From IMG/VR virus record IMGVR_UViG_3300004231_000006, positions 1-41,300 of that record: a stretch of 41,300 nt of DNA. One strand, 5' to 3'. Positions 3,854-39,849 of this stretch are shown piece after piece. This DNA comes from a virus. Under the pieces are notes generated by a model, which saw only the letters and a program-made list of their open reading frames with translations, was not told the origin of the DNA and searched no databases. Both the position numbers and the translations under genes were made by a program. Positions within the stretch are counted from its first letter, which is position 1. Each line of letters opens with the position of its first letter.

Positions 3854-4293
3854 ACCCGCACCTCGTAGTTCATGACCAGCGTGATCTTGTCGGTCTCGCC
3901 GAGGCTGCTGCTGTACTCGATCTTGAGAGAAGTCAGCGCGTCAACCGGTTGCGGGACGATGGAAGTGAGAGCGCCCACGACGACAGCGCCAACTGCGACA
4001 CGCGTATTTGTGTCAGCGCACGACACGGTGTTGTTGAAGACAACCGTCCCGTCGATCGTGATCTGAATCCTGACGTCGCGAGCCGTTGCATCTGCGCACG
4101 AAAAGGCCAGGGAATTAAGCCTTGACCTGGCCCCCGTGACGTTCAGCAGTGTCTTCAAGACGCCGGCCGACGTCGCCCCGGATAACGTCGAGATCCTGGG
4201 GCCATAAATAGCCGCACTGGACAGGCCTTGCGAGAAACCGCACGGCAGAGATGTCACGCGGCTCGCGCCGCCAAGTTGTGAGCGTCGGGTCAT
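3850..4293 (-). CDS. putative tail/fibre-region structural protein
   Basis: 147 aa. The ATG at 4293 is chosen over 4305 because it forms an ATGA overlap with the preceding gene. The sequence is rich in beta-strand patterns (RVAVGAVVVGAL, SLKIEYSSSL, KITLVMNYEVRV) with two cysteines, consistent with a small beta-sandwich. Base composition here is slightly less GC-rich than in the tape measure gene, as often seen for host-range genes. I do not recognise a family. Placed between a fibre-like protein and a small tail protein, so a virion tip or fibre component is likely. Confidence 0.6.
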   Translation of the reverse strand: MTRRSQLGGASRVTSLPCGFSQGLSSAAIYGPRISTLSGATSAGVLKTLLNVTGARSRLNSLAFSCADATARDVRIQITIDGTVVFNNTVSCADTNTRVAVGAVVVGALTSIVPQPVDALTSLKIEYSSSLGETDKITLVMNYEVRV

Positions 4294-38024: not shown

Positions 38025-38228
38025 ATGAGCAATACGAACAAGCCGCCGAAGCACCAGTTCTGGGGTGCAGGCGAACCCGACTGCCCTACTGACCTCTTCG
38101 CGCCGAACGGCCACGAGCTGTGCCGCCGTCGCTGCAAGGTGTGCGGCGAGACAAATCCGCACGACGAGTTCTGTTGGCCTAGGGCGTACGAGCCTGACCC
38201 CCTTGCCGATGAATGGAAGCGCGGATGA
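38025..38228 (+). CDS. small zinc-binding-like protein
   Basis: 67 aa, with TAGGAATCCGC upstream. Four or more cysteines (CPTD, CRRRCKVCGETNPHDEFC) suggest a zinc knuckle. The rest is Pro-rich. Overlaps the methyltransferase start (ATGA). It could aid the methyltransferase or be independent. Function unknown. Confidence 0.6.
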   Translation: MSNTNKPPKHQFWGAGEPDCPTDLFAPNGHELCRRRCKVCGETNPHDEFCWPRAYEPDPLADEWKRG

Positions 38229-38770
38229 GCACTGAAATCATGTCACCCCCCGTAGCCGAGCGCGTTCAGAAGGCCGCGCGCGTGACGCCGCACATCTCGA
38301 CAGACGAGTGGTGGACGCCGCTGCCGATCATCAAGGCGCTGGGCTCCTTCGACCTCGACCCGTGCGCGCCGGTTGCCGACCCGCTGCGGACCGGGGCGGC
38401 GCGCTCGCTCACGCGGCTGGATGACGGATTCACAGCTGAGTGGGCGGGGCGCGTCTGGCTGAATCCGCCGTACTCGACGGCCGGGGCCTGGGTGGAGAAG
38501 CTCGCCGACCACGGCAACGGCATTGCGCTTGTCTTCGCCCGGGTGGAAACCGGATGGTGGCACCAGCACGTCTGGCCCAAAGCCGCAGCCCTCTTGTTCC
38601 TGCGCGGCCGCATCGCGTTCGTCCGTGGCGATGGCATTGACCGGCCAGGCCACAACGCTGCAGCGCCGTCCGTCCTGATCGCCTACGGCGCCGAGAACGC
38701 CGAAGCCCTGCGCTTGTCCGGCTTGGCTGGTGCCTACGTAGACCTGGCGGCTGTCAAGGTCGCCGCTTGA
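38225..38770 (+). CDS. phage Dam-type N6-adenine methyltransferase
   Basis: 181 aa from ATG 38225. The pattern DEWWTPLPIIKALGSFDLDP, LDDGFTAEWAGRVWLNPPYS (NPPY catalytic motif at 80-83) and FLRGRIAFVRGDG matches the phage Dam family (PF05869-type DNA N-6-adenine methyltransferase). It would methylate adenine in phage DNA, possibly to avoid host restriction. No companion restriction enzyme is visible, so an orphan enzyme. Target site cannot be read from sequence. Confidence 0.88.
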   Translation: MSTEIMSPPVAERVQKAARVTPHISTDEWWTPLPIIKALGSFDLDPCAPVADPLRTGAARSLTRLDDGFTAEWAGRVWLNPPYSTAGAWVEKLADHGNGIALVFARVETGWWHQHVWPKAAALLFLRGRIAFVRGDGIDRPGHNAAAPSVLIAYGAENAEALRLSGLAGAYVDLAAVKVAA

Positions 38771-39330: not shown

Positions 39331-39519
39331 CTATGACGGCTCTTTCGCCCGATCAATCGCGCCGGCCAGCCAATCGCTGCCGAGGCGCTTCAGCTTCTGC
39401 CAGCGGGCGTCATTCAGCCGCACGCTGCGCGGCTGGGTGGCGTCCTCGGGCGCCAGGCGCGGCCCGCCTGTGCCCGGCGGCCTGCCCCGGCGCTTGGGTT
39501 GCTCCGGGGCGGTGCTCAT
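39331..39519 (-). CDS. small ribbon-helix-helix-like regulator
   Basis: 62 aa from ATG 39519, overlapping the upstream gene stop by ATGA. A basic, Pro/Gly-rich N-terminus (KRRGRPPGTGGPRLAPED) leads to TQPRSVRLNDARWQKLKRLG, the strand-helix start of a ribbon-helix-helix fold, then DWLAGAIDRAKE. It is the second gene of a two-gene minus-strand operon inside the plus-strand early region and would bind DNA, plausibly at the palindromic promoter at 39753-39798. Compare Aca and antitoxin regulators. Confidence 0.65.
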   Translation of the reverse strand: MSTAPEQPKRRGRPPGTGGPRLAPEDATQPRSVRLNDARWQKLKRLGSDWLAGAIDRAKEPS

Positions 39520-39707
39520 GCGTTGCAGTACGCATCCCAAAGGGCGCGCATCGTCTCGTTGGCGTCGTTGTCCGTGCTGGTACGCACGCCATCGATGAAA
39601 TTTCCGGTCGAGTTACCGACCTTGGCATCGTGGCCGTTTGCATTCAGCCAAGCGGCGAATTCATCCGCTTCCACGGTGTCAACTGCGATTTCGATTTGGT
39701 GGCTCAT
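39516..39707 (-). CDS. 63-aa acidic protein, first gene of minus-strand operon
   Basis: 63 aa. It has a strong GGGAGA ribosome site about 7 nt upstream of ATG 39707 and a palindromic sigma70-like promoter. Very acidic (about 12 Asp/Glu, few basic residues): SHQIEIAVDTVEADEFAAWL, NANGHDAKVGNSTGNFIDGV, NDANETMRALWDAYC. Small, acidic and co-transcribed with a DNA-binding regulator is the arrangement of anti-CRISPR/aca pairs and of other anti-defence genes; a toxin-antitoxin reading is less likely because no toxin fold is seen. No sequence similarity to a known Acr is claimed. Confidence 0.6.
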   Translation of the reverse strand: MSHQIEIAVDTVEADEFAAWLNANGHDAKVGNSTGNFIDGVRTSTDNDANETMRALWDAYCNA

Positions 39708-39752
39708 CTTTATCTCCCGTTGCTGTCCGGCACCGCGCCGTCCATGGAAGTA

Positions 39753-39798
39753 AATGTATTACGAAATAAATCAGGATGCAAGGATTATTTTGTAACAC
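39753..39798 (-). promoter_or_regulatory. promoter with 14-bp imperfect inverted repeat (operator)
   Basis: On the minus strand: TTGCAT (39781-39776), 17-bp spacer, TACATT (39758-39753). Around it GTATTACGAAATAA (39756-39769) and TTATTTTGTAACAC (39785-39798) are inverse copies at 12 of 14 positions, separated by 15 bp. The left arm overlaps the -10 and spacer, so binding there would repress the promoter. The region is clearly more AT-rich than its surroundings. Confidence 0.65.
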
Positions 39799-39849
39799 GC
39801 GCAAAAGCTGCGCGCCCCTGATTTCCAAGCCCCTGCCGACGCCCATCGC

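Follow-up and report, generated by a model that had tools for sequence, protein, structure and literature searches.

A reversed two-gene operon with its own promoter

Two short minus-strand genes lie near the end of the window (the whole 41.3-kb viral record that we analysed), bordered by plus-strand genes on both sides. The first encodes an acidic protein of 63 aa (P0001, the cargo) and the second a basic protein of 62 aa (P0002, the regulator); the genes are chained by an ATGA overlap and share a single AT-rich promoter (Table 1). An earlier note, made from the sequence alone, had described this reversed pair, its ATGA junction and an AT-rich promoter with 14-bp inverted arms matching at 12 of 14 positions, and had called the 63-aa protein very acidic. 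These features were confirmed on the sequence; the computed charge of P0001 is about -8 at a pI of 4.1.

Table 1 Features of the two-gene operon and its control region
Feature	Position	Strand	Remarks
P0002, 62-aa regulator	39331-39519	(-)	Proposed autorepressor; N-terminal RGRPP arm (AT-hook-like), strand-like RSVRL, two helices
ATGA stop/start overlap	39516-39519	(-)	Chains P0001 and P0002
P0001, 63-aa acidic cargo gene	39516-39707	(-)	Proposed anti-defence effector; pI 4.1
5' leader CCATGGACGGCGCGGTGCCGGACAGCAA and ribosome site GGGAGA	39708-39752	(-)	Conserved; aligned with leaders of cassettes bearing other cargo
-10 element TACATT	39753-39758	(-)	Inferred; 17-nt spacer to -35
Downstream operator site GTAATAC	39756-39762	(-)	Overlaps -10; conserved in relatives
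-35 element TTGCAT	39776-39781	(-)	Inferred; position conserved in relatives
Upstream operator site GTGTTAC	39792-39798	(-)	Upstream of -35; conserved in relatives
Inverted arms	39756-39769 / 39785-39798		14 nt each, 12/14 matching (86% complementary), 15 nt apart

The putative promoter reads GTGTTACAAAATAATCC-TTGCAT-17 nt-TACATT on the minus strand, with GTAATAC laid over the -10 element. The inverted arms are the sole such pair within 39700-39830, and a 44-bp operator pattern occurs once in the window and in none of 100 dinucleotide shuffles. A strict sigma-70 consensus scan did not call this promoter, and its assignment therefore rests on comparison with relatives. The leader of about 45 nt is nearly identical in the window and in the related locus L003, although the cargo differs; no common RNA hairpin or fold was predicted within it.

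At its left end the record carries a phage integrase beside a partial tRNA gene; it also has a tail tape-measure gene. The truncated tRNA gene (1-57) adjoins the integrase (167-1444), and the two likely mark one attachment end of an integrated phage. Among the plus-strand neighbours of the operon, 39850-40590 matches the phage queuine tRNA-ribosyltransferase-like family phrog_887 (E 2e-65) and 38213-38770 the DNA methyltransferase family phrog_111 (E 2e-38). These neighbours might provide DNA modification against restriction, in which case the P0001/P0002 pair may belong to an anti-defence cluster. The flanks of the window matched phage records only over short methyltransferase and transglycosylase segments, leaving no empty site for comparison. 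No attC sites were found in the window; by that criterion, this copy is not an integron gene cassette.

P0002 belongs to a family carried by mobile elements

The earlier note had suggested that the 62-aa protein be compared with Aca and ribbon-helix-helix (RHH) families. P0002 fell into no family in Pfam or NCBIfam. Relatives in viral contigs numbered 10, 14 and then 26 over successive scans; two plasmids carry one relative each, and among 399 Burkholderiales genomes only 3 gave a match. We conclude that P0002 belongs to a mobile-element-borne family outside Pfam and NCBIfam. An N-terminal GRP/GRK arm and the motif (P)RSVRLnDaRWxKLkrLGxxWLxxxID are invariant, or nearly so, across its members.

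The suggestion that P0002 is RHH-like is plausible and not proven. An AlphaFold2 monomer model shows RSVRL extended and followed by two short helices (37-46 and 48-57). Alignment to Arc/Mnt/CopG with hhalign gave an RHH register at a probability of 1.3%, which is not significant (the reference sequences were not taken from database records). Weak matches to a PHROG of Arc-like repressors were seen for three relatives (best E 0.0044), and the end genes of L070 and L075 resemble full-length RHH proteins by eye. P0002 had no Pfam hit, and a Foldseek search with the monomer model returned no match. Helix-turn-helix families were absent across 31 members of the regulator family, save for one weak HTH_37 match (E 0.064, 1/31). 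A V_ATPase_prox match of two relatives (E 0.0009) was rejected as an isolated match without context. We read P0002 as a short protein of the RHH type carrying an AT-hook-like arm; this is an inference, and its fold is not confirmed. In L023 (3590-4141), the regulator domain encoded by the last gene is joined to an unrelated domain at its N terminus, an arrangement that recalls bifunctional Acr-Aca proteins.

Operator and regulator predict each other

Paired sites of the form GTRTTACA / TGTAATAC, spaced by 35, 36 or 47 bp, were found in 30 loci, where they flank the -35 element and cover the -10 element. At the first count, paired GTRYTAC/GTAATAC-type sites lay upstream of 17 of 28 regulator loci, with 0.035 expected in shuffles; only one other operator pair was found in 242 kb, at the distal promoter of the four-cargo operon L010. 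Both half-sites of the 30 pairs have TGTnnTAC-like cores with A-rich sequence on the inner side. Between spacings of 36 and 47 bp the -35/-10 spacer is constant at 17, and it is the upstream site that is shifted, by 11 bp or one helical turn. The paired site is missing from several relatives (L002, L011, L012, L028, L044, L047 and L048), for L002 at least owing to a truncated contig. In L024 and L025 (around 3940-4159 and 240-461, respectively), the regulator stands alone, with no cargo before it, and immediately follows two direct copies of TTTCGTATTACCA.

In a reverse test, the operator pattern alone served as the query, without any protein. Of the 17 viral contigs that it retrieved, six were known before and eleven were new. 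Downstream sequence was sufficient in nine of the eleven, and in all nine a short GRP/GRK gene comes after small cargo; some of these end genes are too diverged for the protein search. A variant pattern added a tenth such cassette, L070. The operator-first search therefore gave 12 new contigs in total, and every one with sufficient downstream sequence (10/10) ends in a GRP/GRK regulator gene after the cargo. The operator pattern was absent from the 399 Burkholderiales genomes. Since the searches in the two directions agree, operator and regulator predict each other. Their co-occurrence is shown; that they are linked we consider very likely, with DNA binding and repression by P0002 remaining inferences.

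The cargo differs from virus to virus

The 35 cargo proteins encoded between operator and regulator form about 30 mutually unrelated groups of 43-143 aa, most of them without any known function, and several operons carry two to four cargo genes (L010, L040, L003). The earlier note had asked whether homologues of the regulator follow varied small genes elsewhere; they do so across dozens of mobile elements, and the same operator pair precedes these units. Its picture of an acidic effector as the general design did not generalise: many cargo proteins are acidic, yet their pI spans 4.1 to 10.6. The control region and regulator remain constant while the small gene differs in each virus, and we infer that the unit is likely a swappable cassette.

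The cargo of the window had been said to match nothing recognised, and this held. No homologue of P0001 was found in Pfam, NCBIfam, PDB, or the phage, plasmid or viral collections, and there was no PHROGs match below E 0.1. Its predicted structure, another of the proposed checks, is a low-confidence model (pLDDT 64.5). Foldseek matches to that model, all of them small alpha-beta domains, did not reach significance (best E 0.45) and were not used.

Two sister cassettes carry AcrIE4 relatives

Only one cargo was placed in a curated family above its cutoff. This 55-aa protein, from L043, scores 75 bits against a cutoff of 27 for Pfam PF25703 (anti-CRISPR) and matches the solved structure of AcrIE4-F7 (PDB 7vzm, E 3.5e-15). 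A scan of viral contigs with the L043 cargo returned a single further convincing AcrIE4 relative, the cargo of L075 (7vzm, E 3.1e-15). In L075 the operator sites (GCAGTAC) are paired at a spacing of 35 bp, the leader is that of L054, and an RHH-like gene follows the cargo. Hence, both of the only two convincing AcrIE4 relatives in viral contigs lie inside a P0002-type cassette. The third hit, L076, was rejected as a CI-like repressor with a short chance match. Mutation has shown that E19, D22, D30 and E31 of AcrIE4-F7 are important for Cas8e binding (PMC8887544); the L043 cargo retains all four, and that of L075 has N at position 22. Proteins about 61% identical to the L043 cargo occur in 29 phage records, nearly all from Pseudomonas, and in Pseudomonas phage LESphi4 the homologue heads an operon annotated acrF3/acrIF5/regulator. 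By homology, the L043 and L075 cargos are AcrIE4 relatives; that they inhibit CRISPR is inferred.

In a third locus, L035 (genome G288, Burkholderiales; 1032-1660), the gene for a 150-aa protein overlaps that of a regulator sharing 48% identity with P0002, and the promoter ahead of them contains one canonical operator site. We take the 150-aa protein to be AcrIF11-like, as it is 53% identical to an AcrIF11 sequence that was not taken from a database record. This is a lead: membership of the AcrIF11 family is likely, and rests on that one comparison alone. The regulator is thus encoded last beside an acr homologue in L043, L075 and probably L035, whereas its partner in the window is an unknown protein.

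Given the AcrIE4 relatives in two sister cassettes, the cassette of the window probably makes a protein that disarms bacterial immunity. The earlier note had proposed an acr-aca-like design with autoregulation by the second gene. This is supported for the cassette family, by two units with AcrIE4 relatives and one with the AcrIF11-like gene. For P0001, which has no homologue, it is only an inference, and operator binding by P0002 and inhibition of defence by P0001 are likewise inferred. By association alone, we lean towards an anti-defence role for P0001; we lean slightly against its being an anti-CRISPR in particular. It showed no homology to a proven Acr.

A probable acr-aca-like cassette and its alternatives

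We consider it likely that the operon is an acr-aca-type anti-defence unit, complete in itself, although the function of P0001 and the DNA binding, repression, fold and timing that this reading requires are inferred. On entry of the phage DNA the promoter would be free, giving a burst of the 63-aa cargo and the 62-aa regulator. P0002, a putative small dimer of the RHH type with an AT-hook-like arm, would then bind two sites some three to four helical turns apart, bracketing the -35 element and covering the -10 element, and so shut the promoter. Cargo would be swapped between phages while the control region and regulator are retained. In this model P0001 would most likely be another inhibitor of a host defence and might act as an acidic mimic directed against type I CRISPR.

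The strongest alternative, which we nevertheless regard as unlikely, is a general moron cassette. Regulator and operator would serve as a general expression module for small proteins with diverse accessory roles, such as superinfection exclusion, host takeover or metabolism; anti-CRISPRs would be only some of the passengers, and P0001 would not be an anti-defence protein. The roughly 30 unrelated cargo groups, with their wide range of pI (4.1-10.6) and mostly without known function, are consistent with this. However, the one cargo that scores above the cutoff of a curated family is an anti-CRISPR, and tight autorepression from such a layout, here inferred for P0002, is typical of Acr loci (PMC9410906).

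A type II toxin-antitoxin pair with an RHH antitoxin is very unlikely, and we reject it. RHH proteins are common antitoxins; the operon has two small overlapping genes with putative autoregulation, and one relative weakly matches the antitoxin family phrog_4692 (E 0.076). However, the partner gene changes from locus to locus without matching any toxin family, operons such as L010, L040 and L003 hold two to four partners, the L024 regulator stands alone behind its operator, and P0002 stops just past its second helix, with no toxin-binding tail. The lack of a P0001 homologue might point to chance ORFs or to the relic of a decayed locus on the non-coding strand, but both are all but excluded by the 26 regulator relatives that one scan found in viral contigs and by an operator, leader, ribosome site and ATGA junction conserved despite different cargo.

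Under the favoured acr-aca-like reading, the closest known systems are the acr-aca operons themselves (Aca1-Aca12; for example, the acrIE4-like/acrF3/acrIF5 operon of LESphi4 with its regulator). Both kinds of unit have varied small inhibitor genes first and a small regulator last, its DNA binding inferred for P0002, and both have overlapping genes, an inverted operator over the core promoter and AcrIE4 homologues. As of 2022, 12 Aca families were known, all of helix-turn-helix proteins that act on the core promoter, binding inverted repeats there and repressing it (PMC9765179, PMC9410906). P0002 operons meet the criterion of a conserved inverted repeat in their own core promoter. By contrast, the P0002 family consists of short proteins with a GRP arm and an inferred strand-helix-helix fold, and has its own operator. 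Because it matches no helix-turn-helix family, we do not file P0002 in any existing Aca family and describe it only as working like one. We found no RHH Aca in the open-access literature searched.

Two other systems offer partial parallels. RegP576-type repressors of clade II pLS20-family plasmids are RHH autorepressors that allow a burst of expression when the element enters a cell, as inferred for P0002; the paper describing them distinguishes these RHH repressors of plasmid establishment genes from the helix-turn-helix repressors of phages, and itself draws a comparison with Aca control (PMC8708921). They differ in serving establishment genes of conjugative plasmids, and no sequence link to P0002 was shown here. 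In archaeal viruses, a shared promoter/operator likewise marks unrelated small anti-defence genes (PMC11065993), but the promoters are archaeal, the genes mostly single and the regulator, Aca8, a wHTH protein.

AcaFinder, a tool for Aca-guided discovery, looks only for helix-turn-helix regulators and would miss the P0002 family by design. Operator and regulator together offer a sequence handle to about 30 untested groups of small proteins, for which the AcrIE4 and probable AcrIF11 relatives are internal positive controls.

Sister cassettes lie among attC-like sites

Several sister cassettes (L006, L007, L008, L051-L054, L059 and L011) lie among attC-like sites, and GTTAGGC often occurs a few bases before the operator. 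Terminase large subunit genes were found on 10 of 13 cassette contigs tested, including five with attC arrays, indicating that these are phages; L006, L053 and L054 are contigs with an attC run shown to carry a terminase gene. Arrays of attC sites on phages are already known (PMC9892861), and the cassettes of L006-L008, L051-L054 and L059 resemble such integron gene cassettes and CALINs in lying among attC sites on phage contigs. P0002-type cassettes differ in having their own promoter and putative repressor, and the window copy lacks attC.

A bolder reading makes the regulators a new kind of anti-CRISPR repressor, not of the helix-turn-helix type, that would mark out a large pool of exchangeable anti-defence genes among phages infecting environmental bacteria. 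Part of this pool would move as integron attC cassettes with their own promoter and repressor, and most of the unrelated cargo, P0001 included, would represent new inhibitors of host defence. Taken jointly, these claims are slightly less likely than not to hold. If attC-borne copies do move by integron recombination, phages and integrons would share a pool of regulated counter-defence genes.

The attC-like sites are GCCTAAC..GTTAGGC hairpins of 54-115 nt and form runs at L006 1-2054, L051 421-1523, L053 9010-10173, L054 4459-5561 and L059 2734-3638. Partly identical attC sites recur across the contigs of L006, L051 and L054.
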